NCBI GenBank assembly: GCA_021108275.1
Contig: JAIORD010000042.1
Location: 1 to 64,000, forward strand
DNA from: Methanococcoides sp.
Lineage (GTDB): Archaea > Halobacteriota > Methanosarcinia > Methanosarcinales > Methanosarcinaceae
Length of the DNA stretch: 64,000 bases
Direction of reading: 5' to 3'
The notes under the pieces were generated by a model that was given only the letters and a program-made list of their open reading frames with translations, did not search any database and was not told the origin of the DNA. Position numbers and translations under genes: made by a program. The stretch's first letter is position 1. Each line of letters opens with the position of its first letter. Below, piece after piece: positions 30,936-53,335 of this stretch.

Positions 30936-30988
30936 AAAAACCAGATGGGCCCGGGGAGATTCGAACACCCGACCTCTGCCGTGTGAAG
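30936..30988 (+). repeat. Left attachment repeat (attL), copy of the tRNA-Val 3' part
   Basis: These 53 bases are identical to 53066-53118, offset exactly 22,130. They contain 43 bases of tRNA-Val from the anticodon loop to the discriminator, on the minus strand. The rest of the tRNA is missing here, so this copy was made by integration. The integrase C-terminal frame runs through it. Confidence 0.95.
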
Positions 30989-31870
30989 CTGCTTGATGCC
31001 GAAAATGCAACAATTTCTTCTCTTAATATGCCAAGTCAAACATTAGAGATTAATGCTGAAGTGGTACAGGATATATGCCTTAATGATTTCTGGAAAACTT
31101 CTAAGGACGCATTTGATGAATGGTTAAATTTCAAAGATATATCTAAGAAAACTAAGCAAGGTTATCGGAGTGGCCTGATTAATTTCTTTGAAAACAATAT
31201 GGTGCATAAACCAAAAGACTTTCGAAAATTGAAGTTGAAAGACAAGGAATCACGTGGATTACGTAATTTATTTAATTTTTGTGAAGATGAAGAAATCGAA
31301 GATGTAGTAGGCTATAACATCGACAGGTGGAGGCGGTTCATAAAAATCAGGAAATCTGGAGTTGTGGAGGTCTATGTCACTGATGAAGAAATCAAAGAAG
31401 CTTACAATGCTTGTCCTGAAGTGCTGAAACCAGTATTTAGTCTGCTTGCTTATTCAGGAAACAGGGCTACACATATTCATAAGATGTTAGATAATTTCGA
31501 TGAACGCAACATTATCATAGATGGTGATGTTGCACATTATCCGACTTCATCATTATCTGAAGGTACGAAGAAAACATTCCAAGTATATTTCCCAACTTCA
31601 TTTATTCCAGAGCTAAAATCGATTGGTAAGCCAAGATGTTATTACAACATTACTGAAAAGATACGTAATGGTCGTGTTTCTGCGAAGACCATACGCAAGT
31701 GGCATCTCAACTTAATGATTAAAGAAGGAGTTACTGAAAGTATAGCTGACTTTATTCAAGGAAGGGCAGCAGTGACGGTTGGAAGTGCACATTATCTCAA
31801 CAAAGTTCAGAGGGGTAAAGAAGAATACCATAAGGTTATGAATTATTTGCAGGTACATGCAGAGGTATAA
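30983..31870 (+). CDS. SSV-type integrase, C-terminal part (split by integration)
   Basis: The catalytic half of a tyrosine recombinase: SGNR with the first arginine (residue 161 counting from GTG 30983), the beta-hairpin lysine in EGTKKTFQVYFP (196-197), RKWH (238-241), QGR (260-261 region) and the nucleophile in SAHYLNK (Tyr 271). FIQGRAAVTVGSAHY is the archaeal plasmid/virus integrase signature. GTG 30983 lies in the att repeat and is unlikely to be a true start: the frame runs upstream through the repeat exactly as in the N-terminal fragment at 52783-53118. In the integrated state this half has no promoter of its own that I can see, so it should be silent until excision. Confidence 0.92.
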   Translation: MKLLDAENATISSLNMPSQTLEINAEVVQDICLNDFWKTSKDAFDEWLNFKDISKKTKQGYRSGLINFFENNMVHKPKDFRKLKLKDKESRGLRNLFNFCEDEEIEDVVGYNIDRWRRFIKIRKSGVVEVYVTDEEIKEAYNACPEVLKPVFSLLAYSGNRATHIHKMLDNFDERNIIIDGDVAHYPTSSLSEGTKKTFQVYFPTSFIPELKSIGKPRCYYNITEKIRNGRVSAKTIRKWHLNLMIKEGVTESIADFIQGRAAVTVGSAHYLNKVQRGKEEYHKVMNYLQVHAEV

Positions 31871-36022: not shown

Positions 36023-36511
36023 TTATTCGCTAAGGTTATAATACCTCTCATCAGCATTTCGAATATCCAAACATATATTAACAGCTTTATCTTTGGCATC
36101 TGCACCTTTTAGAATATATTCATGCTTTTCGCTATCTTTAGTTGTAATGAATAATTTAGATTTCCTTGATAATAGGTATCCTACAAGGGAAAATAGAGCA
36201 ACAACAGCAAAAGCAGCCATTGAAATGTTGAGGATTTCTTCATTAGCAATAGCAAAAATATTTTGACGAGAAAAAATAGCAGCACCGACTGTTATTAAGA
36301 AAATATATAGGTAGCTTTTATCGGACTCATATTCTAAACCAACAGAAACGATACTCCCAAACTTTATATCATAAAAATTGGTTTCCCCACCATCAACTAC
36401 AATCAACCGTTTGTTTGTAATCGCAAGATGAATTTTATTGTCACATACTGTGTGAACGTTAGCTACTTTTTCTCCATTAATCAAATATTTCTCATAGATG
36501 GATTCTGTCAC
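36023..36511 (-). CDS. Membrane protein with bacterial-PH-like domain
   Basis: The 162-residue protein has an N-terminal segment of beta strands (NKIHLAITNKRLIVVDGGETNFYDIKFGSIVSVGLEY), as in small PH-like domains, then two membrane helices (about residues 68-83 and 94-112), then a cytosolic tail. Homologues are usually uncharacterised. It starts 3 bases after the gene at 36515, so the two are coupled. Confidence 0.6.
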   Translation of the reverse strand: MTESIYEKYLINGEKVANVHTVCDNKIHLAITNKRLIVVDGGETNFYDIKFGSIVSVGLEYESDKSYLYIFLITVGAAIFSRQNIFAIANEEILNISMAAFAVVALFSLVGYLLSRKSKLFITTKDSEKHEYILKGADAKDKAVNICLDIRNADERYYNLSE

Positions 36512-39314: not shown

Positions 39315-40313
39315 TCATTCAATGTCATAATCTTGTAAAGAAACACCCCAATAAGTACATAGTTTAGATAAATCCTCAAGACAAAGTGAATTTTCCCATG
39401 TTTCTTTCAAAGCATACATCTCATTTTCAATCAAAAAAAATATCAAAAATATTTCAGGTTGACTGAGGTAAGGTATTTCAGCAGATTCATTTTTTCTTTC
39501 AGTTAGAATATAATCAATCTTGTCCATATTACTGGATAAGAAATCGGTCATTTTTGCAATAAAATCTTCTGTTGAATGAATATTAGCCGATTCAAGTACA
39601 GGTAACAACACTTGAATATTTTGATAGGAAAAATCATAGTCATAATTTGCATTTATTTTTTGAATAAATGGTTTCTTTAAGTCATTTAGTATGAATTCTT
39701 CATTTAAAATTCCAAGCTCCATTATTTTTTCATTTAAAGTTGAAAAACAATTATCGGCAACTTCTAAAAGTCCTGCAAGACAGTAAAATTCCCTCTTTAT
39801 TTCAGAACTCATGTCTGAGGTCGCTTTATATCCAATGTCGTGATAGATTTCTGCCCAAGTATCTTCACAGTTTGTTCTAACTTGAATTTCAGCAACATGA
39901 TTTTCTAATAATTTGTAGACTTCGGGTTTAACTGAATTGGCTTTTAATACCACATCAAAATGTATGGATTTGTAACCTTGTTCTTTAAAATCCAAATGAT
40001 GGATTTTATTGTCTTCATTGATTACTTCAAATACTTCCATTATTATTTCTTGAATCATTTGCAAATCTTGTTTAAACTTGCAGATAACTCTTGCAGCAGA
40101 TTTATCGGTCAGTGAAGGGTAGCAATCAAAGCCTTTTTTATATAATTTTTTCATTAAGCTAGCATCATCCTTTGTTCTAGAAAGTATTCTTGCATTCAAT
40201 CCTTTCTTGCGAACGTTGGATTCTAATATCTCACTAATCATCTTAGTCAGCATTTGATGATTATTTTTATCATGTTTCCAATGTAAGATGACGTCTTCTT
40301 TACTTAATGACAT
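39315..40313 (-). CDS. RelA/SpoT-domain nucleotide pyrophosphokinase-like protein
   Basis: The 332-residue protein keeps the full synthetase signature: SRTKDDASLMKKLYKKG (RxKxxxSxxxK, about residues 44-60), the metal-site aspartate in LTDKSAARVI (about 68-77), GYKSIHFD (about 115-122, the G loop YxSxH) and EIQVRTNCEDTWAEIYHDIGYK (about 142-163, catalytic Glu). No HD hydrolase, TGS or ACT domain is present. The C-terminal 130 residues are unassigned. It could make (p)ppGpp or related alarmones, or pyrophosphorylate tRNA like toxic small alarmone synthetases. It follows the NA37-like gene by 12 bases on one mRNA. Confidence 0.85.
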   Translation of the reverse strand: MSLSKEDVILHWKHDKNNHQMLTKMISEILESNVRKKGLNARILSRTKDDASLMKKLYKKGFDCYPSLTDKSAARVICKFKQDLQMIQEIIMEVFEVINEDNKIHHLDFKEQGYKSIHFDVVLKANSVKPEVYKLLENHVAEIQVRTNCEDTWAEIYHDIGYKATSDMSSEIKREFYCLAGLLEVADNCFSTLNEKIMELGILNEEFILNDLKKPFIQKINANYDYDFSYQNIQVLLPVLESANIHSTEDFIAKMTDFLSSNMDKIDYILTERKNESAEIPYLSQPEIFLIFFLIENEMYALKETWENSLCLEDLSKLCTYWGVSLQDYDIE

Positions 40314-40325
40314 GAAATACTATCC

Positions 40326-41330
40326 TTATATGTTTTCTAGACGAGATTCTACAGTTGCTCTAGTATCTCCATTCTCAAGAGGCTCTAATTTAACATTTTC
40401 TTCAAAGTCATTATTTGTGCCAATAATTCGAATACCATTTTCAAATTCATATAAATGCTTTTTGATGTCCGCTTCAATATAACTTACATCTTTCAAAATT
40501 TGAATTGGAACATCCTTTTCATGTAAGTATTTTTCATAGCTATTTCTATCGCTAATATTCAAATACATTGCTGCAAATGTCCTTGTATTAAGAGTTCCTG
40601 ATTGACTTGAAACATATGATTGTAAGTGAAGTTTGTATTGATTTTGAATTAATGGGTCTTCAATATTATTTTTGAAAAAATCAATCGAATATTTAAAAAA
40701 ATTCTTTGTTTCGATTGCGTAATCAGCATTTAATTTACATCCCAAAAATCCTCTCAAGAAAAAGTGAGCAACATCACCTTTCTTAGTAAGTTGGTTATCA
40801 CAAATAGTTCCACTATATGAATCATCAGATTCCTTATAAAACACACCAATTTTGAACAATCTTGTATTTTTAGAAAGAATGAGGTCTTTTATATTTGTTA
40901 TTTCAAATGTATTTTTTCCATCTCTTTGAGATTGTTTTAGTTGTGCTCCTTCTTCCTTTTCAAGTTTCAAAATTCCGATAACTTTTTTATTTTCATTAAA
41001 ACCATGAAGTATTAGAATAAATCCTGCTGAATTGATTCCACTTTGTGTTTTGTTCAATTGTTCTGATATTTGTTTAGATAGTGCTATAAACCCGTCAGTA
41101 TCAAAATCTTCATTTAGTAATGTTTTTATAATTTCTGGAACTGGTGAATCAGAGCCATCATCAAATGAAATTTCATGAGCATTTTTTGAACCAATGGATT
41201 TTATTAACTTACTTTTAAGGAATTTTTTTGAATCATTGTTTAAACTACTCTCAATTTCACTATATATGGGTGGTTCTTTGTCCTCTCTCATTTTTTGTTT
41301 TAATATTTCATGGATGATGACATTTTTCAC
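40326..41330 (-). CDS. NA37/YejK-like nucleoid-associated protein
   Basis: The 334-residue protein resembles the 37-kDa nucleoid-associated family: an N-terminal part, a beta core (SAGFILILHGFNENKKVIGILKLE, about 117-140), then KKGDVAHFFLRGFLGCKLNADYAIETKNFFKYSIDFF near 190-230, the family's most conserved block, and a C-terminal beta region. Identification is by pattern and is moderate; other defence-associated DNA-binding families share this shape. It is the first gene of a two-gene unit with the RelA/SpoT-domain gene and could be its DNA/phage sensor or antitoxin (inference). Confidence 0.6.
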   Translation of the reverse strand: MKNVIIHEILKQKMREDKEPPIYSEIESSLNNDSKKFLKSKLIKSIGSKNAHEISFDDGSDSPVPEIIKTLLNEDFDTDGFIALSKQISEQLNKTQSGINSAGFILILHGFNENKKVIGILKLEKEEGAQLKQSQRDGKNTFEITNIKDLILSKNTRLFKIGVFYKESDDSYSGTICDNQLTKKGDVAHFFLRGFLGCKLNADYAIETKNFFKYSIDFFKNNIEDPLIQNQYKLHLQSYVSSQSGTLNTRTFAAMYLNISDRNSYEKYLHEKDVPIQILKDVSYIEADIKKHLYEFENGIRIIGTNNDFEENVKLEPLENGDTRATVESRLENI

Positions 41331-41851
41331 ATCTAAAGTTGAATAATCTTGAATAATAGCACCTCAAGTCAGATTTATTACATTGACATAAACTTTCATT
41401 GTTTATAAATGATTTTGATATAATCCAATTACAAAGTGGAAAAGACTATGATTAAAATATGAATAAGAAACCCAAACAAACAAAGCAACAAGTGATGAAA
41501 TTTACTGTATCTAAACGATATGACTAATTTGAAAGAGAGTTTGTGATAATTTAGATATAAATCATTTATCTAATTTTATGCACTGTAATGGAGATATTAA
41601 CCATTGATAATATGTTTCAGCTATTAAAACATTAAACTAAATCAACATACGTATTAAAAAAGTAATATATTGTTATAAATATTGACAAAACCTATTCTTT
41701 TTTCAATTAAGGTAATTAATATTAAATATTTTTAAAAGAGGTGATGAAACGGCCCACATTAATAAATTGATTAATGCATTTACCATTTATTCTTCCAGCT
41801 TGGTAAAGCCTGCACAACCCTTGAGGGAGAACAATCGGGGACCGTAGCTGT
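41331..41851. other. Gap without a clear gene
   Basis: AT-rich stretch upstream of the NA37-like gene; its promoter should lie within 41340-41420. A 22-codon frame (41461) is the longest plausible plus-strand start and is not claimed. Nothing else recognised. Confidence 0.45.
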
Positions 41852-41959: not shown

Positions 41960-42330
41960 ATTTTCCACCTCAATCATAATTATATGCATTCCTATATATA
42001 TTTTAGCTCATTTTGTATTCTATAACTTTTCTATGATATTTAAGAATTGAACCCGTTTGTAATGCATCTATAATATAAAAAAAATAAAAAAATAGATTGA
42101 GATTATTCAACAGGTTCAATGACTTCAGTAATTATTAGAGCTACAACTTTACCTTGGTATTACTTCTTTTAGTATTGTAATTAGATTGTTGTTTACAAAA
42201 TTAACTAGAATGTAAACATTAAGAGCCTAATGCATCTGTTTTCATGTTCATAATCACCACACAACTTAACACAAATGTATATATAGTTTACATTATTATT
42301 CTTTGTATACAATAAAAATAGGTGATTATT
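41960..42330. other. Gap, promoter region of the recombinase gene
   Basis: AT-rich DNA with stops in all frames. TATATAGTTTACATTATTA (42278-42296) may hold the promoter of the downstream recombinase. No gene seen. Confidence 0.4.
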
Positions 42331-42987
42331 ATGAATTATATTGTTCCATATGAAAAAGGCGATTTATTACTAAAAGAAGAAACTGACTATCTGACTTTAC
42401 ATGAGTTCAGACAGCTGCTTGATGCACTTGAAACGAGATATGATAATTTGCAAAGGAAATCTATCAGAAACTTGTTCATCAAGGAGAGAAACAAGTTACT
42501 GTTTGAAATGATGTGGATAACAGCTGGACGCATTTCAGATGTGTTGAGTATTAGAGCTGAAGACATTGATTTTGATACTAGGACAATTAAGTTCTACGTA
42601 CAGAAACGGAAGAAATGGCATCGATTGAGTATCGATTCTGACATTGCATTGAGAATCTCGAATTATCTTCGTACATACCGAGTTACAGGATTTATTTTCA
42701 AAGGATTTGGGAAAGATAAAAACAAAGTGATTACCCGACAGTACGTTCACATAATGTTAAAGGATTTGTCGAAAATTGCAGGAATACGACCTGTTCATTG
42801 TCATTTGTACAGACATGGCCTAGCGACATATTTGCTATCAAGGGGAGTTCCGATGGAAGTAATATCATATCGTCTGGCTCACAGTAGTACAAAAGTAACG
42901 GCAGACTATTATGCAAGAATAACACCCGATATAGAAAGGGATTTGATTAAAACATATGTTCCGAACTTGTTGGGAGATGGGATGTGA
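42331..42987 (+). CDS. Tyrosine recombinase, XerA/phage integrase family
   Basis: The protein of about 218 residues consists mainly of the catalytic domain: AGRISDVLSIRAEDIDFDTR with the first arginine (about residue 71), the lysine hairpin YVQKRKKWHRLSID, HLYRHGLATYLLSRGV (HxxR, about 155-158), the second histidine in LAHSSTKVTADYYAR and the Tyr nucleophile in the same block. It is distinct from the SSV-type integrase of the element. It may resolve element dimers or mobilise a cassette within it. ATG at 42331 follows GGTGAT; the frame opens 9 bases earlier. Confidence 0.85.
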   Translation: MNYIVPYEKGDLLLKEETDYLTLHEFRQLLDALETRYDNLQRKSIRNLFIKERNKLLFEMMWITAGRISDVLSIRAEDIDFDTRTIKFYVQKRKKWHRLSIDSDIALRISNYLRTYRVTGFIFKGFGKDKNKVITRQYVHIMLKDLSKIAGIRPVHCHLYRHGLATYLLSRGVPMEVISYRLAHSSTKVTADYYARITPDIERDLIKTYVPNLLGDGM

Positions 42988-43284: not shown

Positions 43285-44478
43285 TTACGGAGTGTAGAAT
43301 AATTCTCCTTCAACACTAATCTTATTATATTCATGAGCCCATAAAAAATTCTTTTGTTGCGAAAATATGTCTGAAATAACATCTGGATGAGGATGCCCAT
43401 ATCTACCAGAGATACCTGCTGACGCAATATGCTGATTACATTCCTTTAAATCAAATAGAATTTGTTTGTTCCAATTACTTGAAGAACCATGATGGGGTAT
43501 TTGAAATAAAGATATTCTGTCAAGTTCATTATTGAAGTATTTCTTGAATTTAGCATACTTAGTTTTTGTTTTAATATCAATATCTCCAGTTAATAAACAA
43601 CCAATACTCTTTTCAGTACTTTGTTGCGGGATGGGAAATAGCCCAGATAATGTTTGATTGGAATGTGAAATTGAGTATTTTTTTCTTGTGTAAGAACCTA
43701 TAGGTCCATGATACATAGCTAAAGATGTAAAATTTAAGTCATTGTTGATAAAATCCCTGTAGCATTCTTTAATACTTTCACGAGAATAAGCATTTTTGAC
43801 ATATTCTTGGAGTTCTTTTCCACTACTAAAACTAATATTCTTAGTATCAAAGCAATCTTCTAATTTCTTTAATTTTGTGGGCGATATCTGATGATAAAAA
43901 AATTTAAAATTCCAATAATCAAAAAAGTGGTTTCCTTTATTTTTGTAGGCATCTTTTAATACCTGATTAATATCCTCTTTTTCATTTTTGATTATCAACT
44001 TATTAGCAGTATTTTCTTCAAGGTTCAATAATTTCTTATTGTTGATATCCAAACTAATGTCAGGTGGGTATCTATCTTCACTTCCTTTGATTAGTATCAC
44101 TTTGTTGATACCCTTACTAAGCAAATAACTGACAGGATTTAATAAAAAATTAAAATATGATTCTGGATAACTTCTCTTAACAAAAGCAAGCATTAACATT
44201 TCACTAGGAGAATAATAAGGAATAATTGCATATTCGACTTTAACACCAGATAAGAGTTTATCCAACCCATTTACATGGTCTTTATCAAAATGAGATATTA
44301 TTAAAATATCAATTGGCTCTATTTTTAAATCTTCATTTTTATAGTATTTTACTGCTTCAACTACATTATCTTTCTTCATTGAACCGCAATCATAAACGAA
44401 ATTAAAATCACCAATTTTTCCAGTATGAAATAAACCTTGACCAACGTTATGAAAATCAAATTTGAATTGAAGATTCAT
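43285..44478 (-). CDS. Metallo-beta-lactamase-fold hydrolase (ComEC/Rec2-like)
   Basis: The protein of about 397 residues has the metal-binding motif SHFDKDHVNG near residues 59-68, an N-terminal FHNVGQGLFH as in ComEC-type domains, a late PHHGSSSNW near 329-337 and GHPHPD near 358-363. A 140-residue insertion separates the halves. No membrane segments, so it is a soluble nuclease or phosphodiesterase-type enzyme. Such proteins occur in prokaryotic defence islands, usually with a partner; here a 40-residue zinc-ribbon gene lies 66 bases upstream. TTG at 44490 is an alternative start. Confidence 0.8.
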   Translation of the reverse strand: MNLQFKFDFHNVGQGLFHTGKIGDFNFVYDCGSMKKDNVVEAVKYYKNEDLKIEPIDILIISHFDKDHVNGLDKLLSGVKVEYAIIPYYSPSEMLMLAFVKRSYPESYFNFLLNPVSYLLSKGINKVILIKGSEDRYPPDISLDINNKKLLNLEENTANKLIIKNEKEDINQVLKDAYKNKGNHFFDYWNFKFFYHQISPTKLKKLEDCFDTKNISFSSGKELQEYVKNAYSRESIKECYRDFINNDLNFTSLAMYHGPIGSYTRKKYSISHSNQTLSGLFPIPQQSTEKSIGCLLTGDIDIKTKTKYAKFKKYFNNELDRISLFQIPHHGSSSNWNKQILFDLKECNQHIASAGISGRYGHPHPDVISDIFSQQKNFLWAHEYNKISVEGELFYTP

Positions 44479-44544
44479 GACTACACACAACCGATACTAA
44501 GAATCTAAACATAATATATAATCTTTTTGAAATTAATTTTTAAG

Positions 44545-44868: not shown

Positions 44869-46383
44869 ATGGTACTCACACTCAATGAACTCAACACCCA
44901 TTTATTCAAAGCAGCCGACATCCTGCGAGGCTCTATTGACAGTTCCGAATACAAGCAGTACATATTCGGTCTTCTTTTCCTGAAACGTCTATCTGACCAA
45001 TTTGATGAGAATGTAAAGAAAGTAACAACGGAACTCATCAATGACGGCATGAGTGAAGAACAGGCAATGGAGATTGCCACAACCGACCCTGATGAACATC
45101 CTGAGAGCTTCTTTGTACCTGAAAGAGCACGATGGAGCGAACTGCAAAAGAAGTCATCCGATATCGGAGAGGCAATCAATACAGCATTTGAGGCACTTGA
45201 AAATGAAAATTCATCTCTTGAAGGTGTTCTTGTTGCCATCGATTTCAACGACAAGGGTAGGTTGAGTGATGCTGTTCTGCAAAAACTGATAAACCATTTC
45301 AGTGAACACAATCTTGCGAATCACAGCCTTGAAAATAAGGACATGCTCGGCAGAGCTTATGAATACCTCATTAAACATTTCGCTGATGATGCTGGAAAGA
45401 AGGGCGGTGAATTCTACACGCCTGAAGGTGTTGTTCATTTGCTTGGTAAATTGCTCAAACCAAATGAGGGAATGCGAATCTGCGACCCAACGTGCGGTTC
45501 TGGTGGCATGCTGATAGAGTGTATCCATTATCTTATCGACCATGGCAAGAATCCAAGTGAGATATCTCTCTACGGTCAGGAGAAGAACCTGAACACATGG
45601 GCTATATGCAAAATGAACATGCTTCTTCATGGTATCCTGAATGCAAGAATTGAAAGAGGCGATACCATGTCAGAGCCTAAGCTTCTGGACAATGGGGAGC
45701 TGATGGTATTTGACAGGGTGATTGCTAATCCTATGTGGAACCAGAAAGAATGGTCACGTGAATGGCTCGAAAAGGGCGACCCATTCGGAAGGGTAAAGTA
45801 TGCATTGCCACCGAAATCATCGGCTGATTGGATGTGGATTCAACACATGACTTCTACATTGAATTCCACTGGTATGCTTGGTATAGTACTTGATAATGGT
45901 GTGCTATTCCGAGGTGGGAAAGAGGGGGCAAGTAGACAGGGCTATGTCGATGCTGACATGATTGAACTTATAATTTCTCTCCCGTCAAACCTGTTCTACA
46001 ATACAAGCAGCTCAGGAACGATTCTGATATTTAATAAGAACAAAAGTGCTGACCGTAAGGGCAAGATAATGTTCATTGATGCATCCAATGAATATGAAGA
46101 AGGGAAGGCACAGAACTTCCTGCGTGAGTCCAATGTCGATAAAATTGTTGAGACATTCGACAATTATGAAGATGTTGAAAGATTCTGTTCTGTGGTGAAT
46201 GTTGAAAATATCATTGAGAATGAATACAACCTCAACGTTTCAATGTATGTTGATACATCCGAACAAGAACCTGAAATTGATGTTGCAAAGGTCAATGCTG
46301 AATTGAAGGACTTGCTACACCAGAGGGATGAATCCTATAGGAAAATGCAGTTATGCTTGCAGGAGTTGGGGTATGGCAATTGA
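44869..46383 (+). CDS. hsdM: Type I restriction-modification methyltransferase subunit
   Basis: The 504-residue N6-adenine methyltransferase subunit has the N-terminal HsdM helical domain ([32 protein letters not shown]), SAM motif [11 protein letters not shown] (about 205-214) and catalytic motif IV NPMW (about 287-290, in place of NPPF/Y, a known HsdM variant). AAGGTG precedes the ATG. First gene of the hsdM-hsdS-hsdR-metallopeptidase operon, and overlaps hsdS by 11 bases. Base composition is closer to the chromosome than the left half of the element. Confidence 0.95.
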
Positions 46384-47584
46384 AGTTAAAGTTCCTGACG
46401 GATACAAGGCTACAGTAATTGGTATTATACCTAATGATTGGCAAATTAAGAGTATTAGTGACCTATTTGATGTCAAAAATGGTGCAACTCCATCGACCAA
46501 AGAAGCAAAATACTGGTCTAATGAGCAAATTAATTGGATTACACCTACGGATTTAAACAAACTGACAGGAAAATCACTGATTTCTAGAAGTTCTAGAATG
46601 ATTAGTGAAATTGCATTAAGTGAATGTAATTTAACCCTCATGCCAACGAATTCATTGATAATGTCAACACGTGCACCAGTTGGTTATGTTACACTTGTTA
46701 AGGAAAAAGCTACATTTAATCAGGGTTGTAAAGGGTTAATCCCAATAAATAAAAGTGTGTTTCCCCATTTTTACATGTATTTTTTGCTCAAATCTAAAGA
46801 AAAACTCAAAAGTATCAGTGGTGGTAGCACTTTTCAAGAATTGTCTAAAAAATCTCTTAATAATTTTCAAGTCCCATTACCACATCTTCCTGAACAACAA
46901 AAAATCGCATCCATCCTCTCCAAAGTCGATGAACATATATCCCAAACGAAAGCCATCATCGAGAAGACTGAGGAATTAAAGAATGGACTGATGCAGCAGT
47001 TATTTACAAAAGGTATCGGACATACGGAGTTTAAGGAGACGGAATTGGGAGAGATTCCCGATGAATGGGAAGTTTGCAAGTTAGGAGATATACTCACTTT
47101 GCAGAGGGGACATGATTTACCTTTAAGTGATAGAATAAAAGGCAACATTCCAGTTATTGGTTCAAATGGTATTGTTGGTTATCACAATGAAGCAAAATAT
47201 AAAGGTACGTGTGTTTCAATGGGTAGAAGTGGAACAATTGGCAAAATCCACTATTATGAAGGAGACTATTGGCCTTTAAATACATCATTATTTGTCAAAA
47301 ACTTTAACGACAATGCTCCAATATTTTTGTACTATTTATTGCAAGGTATTAATTACGAAAAATTTAATTCAGGAACCAGTGTCCCTACACTAAACAGAAA
47401 TTTATTACATCCACATAAGGTTCCCTTTACTTTTGATATAAATGAACAAAAAAAGATTGCTTCCATACTATCAAAAGTTGATTCACAAATAAAGCAAAAC
47501 AAAAATTATTTATCTAATCTGGAAGAACTTAAGAAAGGTCTTATGCAAGACCTATTAACAGGCAAAGTCAGAGTGAATGTCTAA
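46373..47584 (+). CDS. hsdS: Type I restriction-modification specificity subunit
   Basis: About 403 residues with two target-recognition domains, each followed by a conserved helical spacer: [43 protein letters not shown] near 175-220 and [20 protein letters not shown]... [16 protein letters not shown] at the end. It sets the DNA target of the complex. I use ATG 46373 (AGGAG 7 bases upstream) instead of 46328, which would overlap hsdM much more. The two recognition domains are AT richer than the spacers, the usual sign of domain exchange. Confidence 0.93.
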
Positions 47585-50500
47585 TGTCCGACCAATCCAA
47601 AATCCAGATGGATGAATATACCCTTGTAGAAGTGCCTGCAATCAATCTATTCAAGGAATTGGGATACAACTACATCGATGGTCATCACATCGATAAAGAA
47701 CTCCATCATTTCTTCCTTTTTGATATACTGAGAAACAAGCTCAAAGAGTTGAACCCTTGGATTGATGACATAAATCTCAATAAGGTCATCAGGGACATCA
47801 CAATCGTTCAGGCTACATCCCAACTTGAAGCAAACGAAATGCTGTATTACAAGTTGGTCAATTACATCAGTGCCAAGCAGGATGTAGGTTATGGAAAAAA
47901 GTCGCAGACAGTCAGAATAATCGATTTTGACAATCCTGAAAACAACGAGTTCACTGTTGTTAATCAGTTTTACATCAAGGGCAGTGACTTCAATATTATA
48001 CCTGACCTTGTTGTATTCATCAATGGAATTCCAATCGCTGTCATTGAATGTAAAAGCCCAAACATCGAATCACCGATTGATGAAGCCATCAACCAGCTAT
48101 TCGGATACAAAGAAAAGAACGAACAGTTCTTTTATCCAAACCAGATACTTGTTGCATTGGCAAGGTATCAAGCTCGGTATGCTTCCACATTTGCACCTGC
48201 AAAGTATTTCTTTGACTGGAAAATTCCCTATCCACTAACTGAAAATGAACTTAAGAACAGGTTGAACAAGGAACAGCTCACCAATCAGGATATTTTGCTT
48301 TATTCACTGTTCAATAAAGAGAATCTGCTGGATATCATCAGGAGCTACATTGTTTTTGAAAATGAAGACAATGAAATCCATAAGAAGCTATGCAGGTACA
48401 ATCAGTATATTGCCAGCAGGAAAATATTTGACAGAATTACTGAAGGCAAGGGCGGTATCATATGGCATACACAGGGTAGTGGTAAATCCCTCACAATGAC
48501 CTATACTGCAATGAAATTACGCAGGATGGAAAAGATACCACAGACTAATATTGAAAATCCCTGTATTCTTATTGTTACTGATAGAACAGACCTTGATGAC
48601 CAGATATCTAGTACATTCAGGAATTGCAAGTTCCCTAATCCCTCACAGGTAGGGAGTGTAAAGCAATTACAGGAAGAATTACAGAATCCACAGGGTAAGA
48701 CTCTGTTCACCACCCTACAGAAGTTCTTTACCAAAAAAGGCGAAGTCTATCCTGAGCTTTCAAAGTCCTCTAATATAGTTGTATTCGTTGATGAGGCTCA
48801 CAGGTCTCAATACAAAGACCTTTCATTAAACATGCGTACAGCGATTCCTAATGCCCTTTTCGTGGGCTTCACAGGTACACCCATAGATAAGAAGGACAAG
48901 TCTACTCCAAAGGTATTTGGAACCTATATCGATAAGTACCTGCCAAAACAGTCAATTGCAGATGGAGCTACTGTCCAGATAAAATATCAGGCTCGTCTTC
49001 CAAACGTTCATATCATAAGCAGTGAGCTTGATGTCGAATTCGATAAAGAATTTTCGGATTATAACGAAGAAGAACAGGAAGCAATAAAGCAGAGAAGTGG
49101 AACTTTCAAGACCATATCTGAAGATAAAGACCGCATCCATGACATCTGTGCAGACCTGCTAGAACACTATAATACGGCTATCAGGCCTGAAGGGTTCAAG
49201 GCACAGATTGTCACATATTCAAGAGATGCTGCTGCTATTTACAAACAAACACTGGATGAAATGGGTGCACCTGAATCCGAGGTCATAATTTCCAGTAATA
49301 CAACCAAAGATGACCCGAAAAGTGAACTTCGCAAGTACTACAAATCCAAAGCTGAACAGCGTAATATCATCAAGAAGTTCAGGAAGCCATTTGCTGATGA
49401 CAACAAGCTTGCATTCCTCATCGTCTGTGACATGCTTTTGACTGGTTTCGATGCTCCAATCGAACAGGTCATGTATCTTGATAAGCCACTGAGAGAACAC
49501 AATCTGATGCAAGCGGTCGCAAGGGTCAACCGACCATTCACTGAAAATAAAAATCATGGTCTTATCATTGATTACTGTGGAATATCCAGAAGATTAAAGG
49601 AAGCACTTGATATATTCAATGACGGAGACGTTGCAGGTTACATGGAAGCCTTGCTGGACGATGTGGCAAGGGCTGAACAGTCCTTGAACAAGGTTAAAAG
49701 GTTCTTCAAGGACGTTCCTACAACATATGATTCTGTAGAATATGTCGATAGTTGTGTCCTTGGTGTTCTCAATGCTCTTGATACAAGGATACGGTTCGAA
49801 AAGGCATTTAAGGAATTTTCGGTATACGTCAACAATATTATACCAAATCCCGAAGCTAATCAATTCAAACGTGACCTTTACTTCTACGGCAAAATCTACA
49901 ACGATATGAGATTCAATTATGATAGTGAAAAGGTCAGTATCCTTGATGCAGCTCCAAAGGCTAAAAAACTCATCCATGACTACCTTGTGAGTAATGGCAT
50001 TAAGGTAATGCATGACCCAATTTCAATCTATTCCACTGAATTTTATGACATGGTGAACCAGAAGACCTCAGATAAGGCAAAAGCAAGCCTTATGGGTCAT
50101 AAAATAAGAACTACAATCAATAATCTGCTCCCTACAAATCCTATTTATTACACATCCTTGAGAGAACGGCTTGACAAAGTAATAAAATCCCATGAAGAAG
50201 AAATGGAATCTTCCACAACGCTACTTGATGACCTTAATGAAATAAAGGACAATCTTGATGTCGATAAGGTTGCACAGCAGCACAATATGAAAGCGGAAGA
50301 TTTTGCTATTTATCAGATGATAAGGGCAGGATATGTGCAATTGAAGGGACGTGAAGGGACAACAGGGATGATACTATCACAGGCTGATGACGATAAGATA
50401 TCAGAAGTATCAAAGGCTATTTTTGAAACATTGGATGAGCTTGCAGTCATTGACTGGAAACAGAAGCAAGACCAGCAGAAAAAGATGCTGCAAAAGGTCA

Positions 50501-50589
50501 AGAGGGTATTGTATAAATTAGGGTATGACGTAAATACTGCTGACAAAGAGAGCAAAAATGTCCTTCATCTTGTCAGGAACATCCTATAA
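47584..50589 (+). CDS. hsdR: Type I restriction enzyme, restriction/translocase subunit
   Basis: The 1001-residue subunit has the PD-(D/E)XK nuclease (PDLVVFINGIPIAVIECKS, about residues 141-159), then an SF2 translocase: Walker A HTQGSGKSLTM (about 295-305), DEAH box (about 401-404) and motif VI region VMYLDKPLREHNLMQAVARVNR (about 626-647). The C-terminal helical domain binds HsdM. TAATG overlaps couple it to hsdS upstream and to the metallopeptidase gene downstream. Intact by all visible motifs. Confidence 0.95.
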   Translation: MSDQSKIQMDEYTLVEVPAINLFKELGYNYIDGHHIDKELHHFFLFDILRNKLKELNPWIDDINLNKVIRDITIVQATSQLEANEMLYYKLVNYISAKQDVGYGKKSQTVRIIDFDNPENNEFTVVNQFYIKGSDFNIIPDLVVFINGIPIAVIECKSPNIESPIDEAINQLFGYKEKNEQFFYPNQILVALARYQARYASTFAPAKYFFDWKIPYPLTENELKNRLNKEQLTNQDILLYSLFNKENLLDIIRSYIVFENEDNEIHKKLCRYNQYIASRKIFDRITEGKGGIIWHTQGSGKSLTMTYTAMKLRRMEKIPQTNIENPCILIVTDRTDLDDQISSTFRNCKFPNPSQVGSVKQLQEELQNPQGKTLFTTLQKFFTKKGEVYPELSKSSNIVVFVDEAHRSQYKDLSLNMRTAIPNALFVGFTGTPIDKKDKSTPKVFGTYIDKYLPKQSIADGATVQIKYQARLPNVHIISSELDVEFDKEFSDYNEEEQEAIKQRSGTFKTISEDKDRIHDICADLLEHYNTAIRPEGFKAQIVTYSRDAAAIYKQTLDEMGAPESEVIISSNTTKDDPKSELRKYYKSKAEQRNIIKKFRKPFADDNKLAFLIVCDMLLTGFDAPIEQVMYLDKPLREHNLMQAVARVNRPFTENKNHGLIIDYCGISRRLKEALDIFNDGDVAGYMEALLDDVARAEQSLNKVKRFFKDVPTTYDSVEYVDSCVLGVLNALDTRIRFEKAFKEFSVYVNNIIPNPEANQFKRDLYFYGKIYNDMRFNYDSEKVSILDAAPKAKKLIHDYLVSNGIKVMHDPISIYSTEFYDMVNQKTSDKAKASLMGHKIRTTINNLLPTNPIYYTSLRERLDKVIKSHEEEMESSTTLLDDLNEIKDNLDVDKVAQQHNMKAEDFAIYQMIRAGYVQLKGREGTTGMILSQADDDKISEVSKAIFETLDELAVIDWKQKQDQQKKMLQKVKRVLYKLGYDVNTADKESKNVLHLVRNIL

Positions 50590-52782: not shown

Positions 52783-53130
52783 ATGAAATCAATAGGAAAA
52801 TCAAAAATCACAAGGCTTCGACCTAAGAAAAACATAGAATATCCTCTAATTCGTTTGCCACAGTCACACGCACATCTCGCAGGGGAAACCGCCCATATCT
52901 TTGAAATCGACAACAATGGCAAATCTTTATTTTTGATATCTTTAGACGAAGACTTCGATGGCAACGTAGTTGTACAACCCAACACCAATTCATACCTCGA
53001 AACCCGACTATCTGCACTAGAGCAAAGGATCATTGAACTAGAAAAACCGCCATGCAGCGAATCAGAAAAACCAGATGGGCCCGGGGAGATTCGAACACCC
53101 GACCTCTGCCGTGTGAAGGCAACGTCATAA
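52783..53130 (+). CDS. SSV-type integrase, N-terminal part (split by integration)
   Basis: 112 residues belong to the integrase, ending in the att repeat (EIRTPDLCRVK); three more codons (ATS) are tRNA-Val sequence and a chance stop. The N terminus IRLPQSHAHLAGETAHIFE and SLDEDFDGNVVVQP followed by a coiled coil (SYLETRLSALEQRIIELEK) is typical of methanogen SSV-type integrases. The frame at 53113-53118 (GTG AAG) equals that at 30983-30988, so excision joins the two to a 405-residue protein. ATG at 52783 has AAGGTAG upstream. Confidence 0.92.
   Translation: MKSIGKSKITRLRPKKNIEYPLIRLPQSHAHLAGETAHIFEIDNNGKSLFLISLDEDFDGNVVVQPNTNSYLETRLSALEQRIIELEKPPCSESEKPDGPGEIRTPDLCRVKATS
53066..53118 (+). 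repeat. Right attachment repeat (attR), within intact tRNA-Val
   Basis: Identical to 30936-30988. Here the repeat continues into the rest of tRNA-Val, so this end keeps the functional tRNA. Confidence 0.95.
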
Positions 53131-53149
53131 CCAGCTAGACCACGAGCCC
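53076..53149 (-). tRNA. tRNA-Val (anticodon CAC), integration target
   Basis: On the minus strand: acceptor GGGCTCG / CGGGCCC, anticodon stem TTGCC/GGCAG closing TTCACAC (anticodon CAC), T loop TTCGAAT, discriminator A. One T-T mismatch in the T stem. The gene is intact because the element supplies the identical 3' part. Confidence 0.93.
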
Positions 53150-53335
53150 ATATTGAATTATAATAGTACCTGAGAAACTGTAACTCGATTATCAGGTGCT
53201 ACAGAGCCTAATTGTAGTTGATGGGCTATAAGTTTAACGGGGGTTTCGGGAGTTTTATGTGGGTGGAGATATTATTCAAAAACTATATAAAAGAACCTGT
53301 CCATTTATGGAAATGTTTAAGTATTATTCATGTAT

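Follow-up and report, generated by a model that had tools for sequence, protein, structure and literature searches.

The window analysed here, a stretch of 64,000 nucleotides from Methanococcoides sp., carries on its minus strand two neighbouring genes, the first encoding a NA37/YejK-like protein (40326-41330, 334 aa, GTG start in the ORF call) and the second a RelA-like protein (39315-40313, 332 aa, ATG start). Both ORFs were confirmed in the arrangement given by the initial annotation, namely two genes 12 bases apart on a common strand. The GC content of the pair is 0.28-0.30 vs ~0.40-0.45 across much of the flanking sequence. Since homologues start with M-[IL]-E-D-F and the reading frame continues open upstream, the real start of the NA37 gene is, judging from the sequence, probably an ATT codon at 41357 or 41354, 8-9 codons upstream of the GTG, which is then likely internal; the hexamer GAGGTG precedes this putative start (41327-41363, minus strand). 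No membrane gene adjoins the pair. A 2TM bPH-like protein (36023-36511) was considered as a possible third member of the unit and rejected, as it lies 2.8 kb off with an opposite-strand gene between.

The pair resides in a 22.2-kb element integrated at a tRNA-Val gene and bounded by att repeats and an SSV-type archaeal integrase (30983-31870, plus strand; PF16795, 132 bits). The repeats are exact direct repeats of 53 bp, the left one at 30936-30988 and the right one at 53066-53118, inside the tRNA-Val gene (53074-53150). In a genome of the same genus, the left-flank gene and a copy of the tRNA-derived sequence are separated by ~4 kb vs ~22 kb here. The mobile element with recombinase and restriction genes that had been proposed from the sequence was thus recovered with its integrase and att repeats; it also encodes a tyrosine recombinase (42322-42987) and, on the plus strand at 44869-50589, a type I restriction-modification system made up of hsdM, an ORF of specificity type and hsdR (PADLOC MTase_I and REase_I). 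The latter are a defence context of the same element and lie outside the pair. An MBL-fold protein (43285-44490, minus strand) weakly matches LmuA, PDC-M48B and RTasMBL of PADLOC and could be a further defence component of the element.

The RelA-like protein matches PF04607 RelA_SpoT with 66.6 bits (Pfam cut-off 27), and the Pfam scan reveals no HD hydrolase domain. Its synthetase domain (residues ~1-200) holds the motifs R46-x-K48-xxx-S52, D70, Y114-x-S116-x-H118 and E142-x-Q144-x-R146-T147, and is followed by a helical C-terminal domain (~200-332). All 19 aligned paired homologues share R46, K48, S52, D70, Y114, H118, E142 and Q144, and 18 of them also keep R146. The initial reading of a product with all synthetase motifs and no hydrolase domain is hence borne out, and this full set of kept motifs rules out a broken enzyme. 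The AlphaFold2 model (pLDDT 88.7) matches in the PDB the small alarmone synthetase 1 (SAS1; 5dec, Foldseek E 4e-9) and CapRel (7ztb, E 4e-6), and D70 and E142 align with those of solved synthetases, which excludes a misaligned catalytic Asp or Glu. A fused antitoxin of the CapRel type was not seen, the Foldseek matches to CapRel (TM ~0.43, rmsd 11-15) giving no convincing fit beyond the synthetase part. The sequence of the RelA-like protein does not separate tRNA, GTP and ATP as acceptors. Furthermore, the 2.67-Mb genome from which the window comes contains neither an HD_4 hydrolase nor another RelA_SpoT match, and therefore no ordinary stringent-response circuit is visible in it.

The assignment of the first product as NA37-like is likewise upheld, by a PF04245 NA37 score of 55.8 bits (Pfam cut-off 24.6) and by the predicted fold. 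Indeed, the single significant PDB match of the AlphaFold2 model (pLDDT 83.9) is E. coli YejK (9be2, Foldseek E 6.9e-9); a PDB sequence search with the NA37 profile gave no match, and the link to YejK comes instead from the fold search. YejK itself has been reported to bind DNA and to act with topoisomerase IV (as cited in PMC10561277).

A neighbourhood search found the pair in archaea and several bacterial phyla, so that the two genes cannot be said to co-occur rarely elsewhere. Counting near-identical records once, 25 paired loci were seen, spanning Halobacteriota, Chloroflexota, Actinomycetota and α-, β- and γ-Proteobacteria. The order NA37 then RelA holds in all 25, and the distance between the genes, where measured, goes from a short overlap (tens of bases, with an uncertain choice of start codon) to ~43 bases. 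A RelA search of 393 Halobacteriota genomes returned a full-length relative of 40% identity with NA37 directly upstream (genome G374), and separate NA37 and RelA searches reach the same two neighbouring genes on a plasmid of Streptomyces sp. NBC_01334. Scanning of genome collections with a NA37 alignment showed RelA immediately downstream in 14/14 loci; because this alignment was built on patterns from paired members, censuses of the whole NA37 family were added. These gave five NA37 genes in 393 Halobacteriota genomes (two with RelA), four in 344 Kitasatosporales genomes (all four with RelA) and two in 197 genomes of a Chloroflexota class (both with RelA). The reverse search of the 344 Kitasatosporales with a RelA alignment yielded four full-length matches (E < 1e-100) in exactly the four genomes with NA37 and, after a gap, partial matches at 7e-44 or weaker. 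If the genes were independent, the chance of this coincidence would be ~1.5e-7 with the centre genome left out, a value that is optimistic given shared descent.

The Klebsiella NA37 retrieved five records from a plasmid collection, RelA adjoining in 5/5. Two of these are from Neisseria gonorrhoeae and have a RelA frame split in two; in the one read (L075, NZ_CP119142.1, 4001-6047), NA37 is followed by a RelA-type gene split over two frames. At the sensitivity used, the E. coli operon occurs in 4 of 5426 E. coli genomes; megablast with the Klebsiella operon gave no close match in E. coli, where relatives came up by distant blastn only. Viral contigs scanned with the first three-sequence alignments and phages searched with the E. 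coli NA37 gave no match.

Phylogenetic analysis indicates that the paired enzymes belong together. A maximum-likelihood tree built from 37 RelA-type proteins puts the 19 from pairs on one side of a single branch (95/91), with solo RelA, NACHT-linked RelA, CapRel and a Listeria SAS outside; several branches are long, and the relations beyond the paired clade are unresolved. The NA37 tree agrees in outline, as four unpaired NA37 form their own group (99/99) and a fifth (L050) sits on a very long branch with no firm place. NA37 and RelA distances are correlated over the 19 pairs (r=0.96) and over 12 divergent pairs (r=0.89, with 0/5000 permutations as high), and this co-divergence, together with the reciprocal census, rules out chance neighbours. 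The window proteins share only low identity with the other paired members (20-38% for RelA and 22-28% for NA37), and the partnership therefore appears to be old.

The helical C-terminal domain follows the same division. The E. coli RelA-type protein aligns over its full length, C-terminal domain included, with the paired profile (hhalign E 4e-21), and the domain of solo relatives gives no clear match to that of the paired clade (E 0.04), so that homology between the two was judged weak or absent. In the paired clade, we infer this domain to be the contact point with NA37. In Conexibacter, a stand-alone copy of the domain follows RelA in an open frame (L022, 9971-10456, E 2e-9), and a stray fragment of it lies near another paired operon (L024, 11298-11587, minus strand).

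The carriers of the pair comprise an archaeal integrative element, plasmids and enterobacterial islands, those of E. coli bearing integrases and lying at tRNA-Thr. Among the copies, one has a type III restriction-modification system just upstream (L028), another a NACHT protein after the pair (L082), and in the commensal E. coli SCU-102 (L078, 7759-13936) the operon, at 871361-873935 of NZ_CP051753.1, adjoins PsyrTA (PsyrA 563 bits, PsyrT 1045 bits). Each partner is also met without the other. On a plasmid of Pantoea sp. S18 (L085, 1801-4837), a NACHT protein with a NA-iREase2 domain has a RelA-type gene 1 bp downstream, in the product of which the YxSxH motif does not align. Solo RelA-type proteins of 300-360 aa, resembling PDC-S33, form a broad family (L051, L052, L053, L067, L070, L071 and others) that occurs in archaea, on plasmids and in phages, among them a filamentous phage of Vibrio and a prophage of Mycobacterium abscessus. 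Some NA37 genes are found by themselves in phage-like elements, and the neighbours of three unpaired Halobacteriota NA37 (L048, L049 and L050) are a restriction enzyme of type IIG, a protein of 574 aa together with one of the STAND/TPR kind, and a protein of 582 aa. As RelA occurs also with NACHT and NA37 also beside other large proteins, the data fit NA37 being an exchangeable sensor or regulator and RelA the effector.

Several known systems resemble the pair in part. ToxSAS and CapRel share with it a synthetase-only RelA-type enzyme with intact motifs, a strict partner or regulatory region and a location on mobile elements. However, the partner here is a NA37/YejK protein of 330-390 aa instead of a small antitoxin or a fused pseudo-zinc-finger, the C-terminal domain is different, a membrane gene is added in many bacterial copies, and CapRel branches outside the paired clade. 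PDC-S33, a single-gene RelA-type phage-defence candidate of PADLOC, is matched by all 14 paired RelA proteins scanned, but mainly over the synthetase part, while the paired clade goes together with NA37 and bears a C-terminal domain of its own. YejK/NdpA of γ-proteobacteria belongs to the same Pfam family and has the same fold, whereas the NA37 proteins of the pair are accessory, operon-bound to RelA and distant in sequence. Neither of the two NA37 proteins scanned had a match in PADLOC, NCBIfam gives no specific name to the NA37-like or the RelA-like protein, and no name for the pair came up in PADLOC, NCBIfam or the literature searched. The nearest case is an E. coli unit with a YejK nucleoid-associated domain, found by DefensePredictor and validated as anti-phage in 2026 (PMC13092281); the main text of that report names no partner, and the unit may be SLATT-NA37-RelA or a different one. 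Within these sources, the pair matches no already named system, and we class it as a new form of the RelA-type (toxSAS-like) systems without counting it as a proven toxSAS member.

The genes, folds, motifs and genomic context are direct observations, as are the strict pairing, the single RelA clade and the co-divergence. Because the pairing is strict across domains, the RelA proteins form one clade, the partners co-diverge, the context is mobile and defence-related, and the pair has no name in the sources searched, there is good support for NA37-RelA being a real, conserved unit of defence type that has so far not been described. The proposal of an undescribed defence or toxin system made at the outset is accordingly supported in part, while the role suggested there for the NA37-like protein, sensing foreign DNA or neutralising the synthetase, is kept as a candidate one.

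Where tested, RelA-type enzymes that lack a hydrolase domain and are encoded next to a strict partner on a mobile element prove to be growth-arresting effectors (toxSAS; PMC11559606, PMC11782079). We give about even chances to the pair being a two-component, element-borne module of the abortive-infection type, which arrests growth when triggered by infection. In such a module, the NA37/YejK-like protein would be the sensor or regulator, and may hold the RelA-type enzyme inactive, or switch it on, through the C-terminal domain of the paired clade. A cue from DNA or nucleoid state, such as a replicating invader or phage takeover, would render the synthetase active, and the enzyme would then, as in toxSAS/CapRel, use ATP to pyrophosphorylate a vital acceptor, either tRNA 3'-CCA ends or purine nucleotides, and so stop growth before any virus is produced. 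The module has gained a membrane protein in Enterobacteriaceae and Streptomyces. The toxicity of RelA, its substrate, its trigger and the direction of NA37 control are what we infer here. In favour of growth arrest, beside the pairing, the single RelA clade, the co-divergence, the kept catalytic residues, the SAS1/CapRel-like fold, the modularity of both partners and the defence neighbours, the organism's own genome shows no ordinary stringent-response circuit, and a unit with a YejK domain defended E. coli against phage (PMC13092281). Against it, simple toxin release leaves the membrane gene of most bacterial copies unexplained, NA37 exceeds the usual size of antitoxins, and NA37 genes occur in part alone in phage-like elements.

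The 14 Streptomyces/Streptomonospora loci all encode a conserved membrane protein, the start of which coincides with the RelA stop or comes just after it; it has ~4 TM segments, three of them above a simple hydropathy threshold in the one copy tested, and on one plasmid (L018) a frame change interrupts its gene. The copies of Klebsiella (L066) and E. coli (L076-L078) instead have a DUF4231/SLATT gene upstream of NA37, and the product of that of E. coli SCU-102 matches the PADLOC 2TM effectors. As no relation is detectable between the SLATT/DUF4231 and the Streptomyces proteins, their homology is not supported, and two unrelated membrane families are recruited to NA37-RelA operons. The enterobacterial form, a nucleotide-transferring enzyme with a SLATT/2TM protein, recalls CBASS with 2TM/SLATT effectors, and SLATT is predicted to be a nucleotide-responsive pore (PMC7159879). 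These features speak for alarmone signalling in the manner of CBASS, in which NA37 would sense infection and the RelA-type enzyme would make a soluble pyrophosphorylated nucleotide as the messenger that opens the membrane protein, depolarising the cell, the archaeal form acting on an unlinked or host target. The enzyme is, however, RelA-type (PF04607) and not a CD-NTase, and no membrane gene adjoins the archaeal (including that of the window), Chloroflexota, Conexibacter and Ochrobactrum copies examined (for L082, from the ORF table). Since these copies do without it, the enzyme must act there without a membrane protein and the minimal unit is NA37 plus RelA; such signalling is a rather unlikely alternative. 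A related reading, an alarmone-messenger immunity in which a YejK-type nucleoid sensor would switch on the RelA-type enzyme and its soluble product would open a dedicated membrane protein (SLATT in Enterobacteriaceae, the unrelated protein in Streptomyces), with the two genes of the archaea as a reduced version, we hold to be unlikely.

Plain toxin-antitoxin addiction, with NA37 as antitoxin, RelA as toxin, stabilisation of the element and an incidental antiviral effect, would agree with the regulator-first, toxin-second order, the 12 bp spacing or overlap, the strict co-occurrence and co-divergence, and the plasmid and island locations. It is nevertheless doubtful, as NA37 equals the enzyme in length and belongs to a DNA-binding-type family and not to an antitoxin family, a membrane partner is unexpected in a simple toxin-antitoxin pair, and defence neighbours recur. 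Regulation of the element, in which the pair would play no part in immunity and would tune replication, supercoiling or maintenance by means of NA37 and an alarmone, would suit an element-borne pair and the reported activities of YejK on DNA and with topoisomerase IV (as cited in PMC10561277), but is quite improbable, the pair being found on unrelated kinds of carriers and not on one element type. Growth arrest is favoured over a messenger, addiction and element regulation on account of the toxSAS precedent and the exchangeable NA37 and RelA partners.

To our knowledge, the known partners of RelA-type antiphage effectors are small antitoxins or fused domains, and we know of no mechanism in immunity for the YejK/NA37 domain. 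The strict partner here is a nucleoid-type YejK/NA37 protein, in an association common to archaea and bacteria. If the messenger reading were true, nucleotides of the (p)ppGpp/(p)ppApp type would be immune second messengers replacing cyclic oligonucleotides. Should the pair act in defence, its mechanism could be tested directly in the commensal E. coli copy, where SLATT-NA37-RelA lies beside PsyrTA. If NA37-RelA is a defence system, it would represent a new sensing module and a case of RelA-type immunity in an archaeon without a visible stringent-response circuit.
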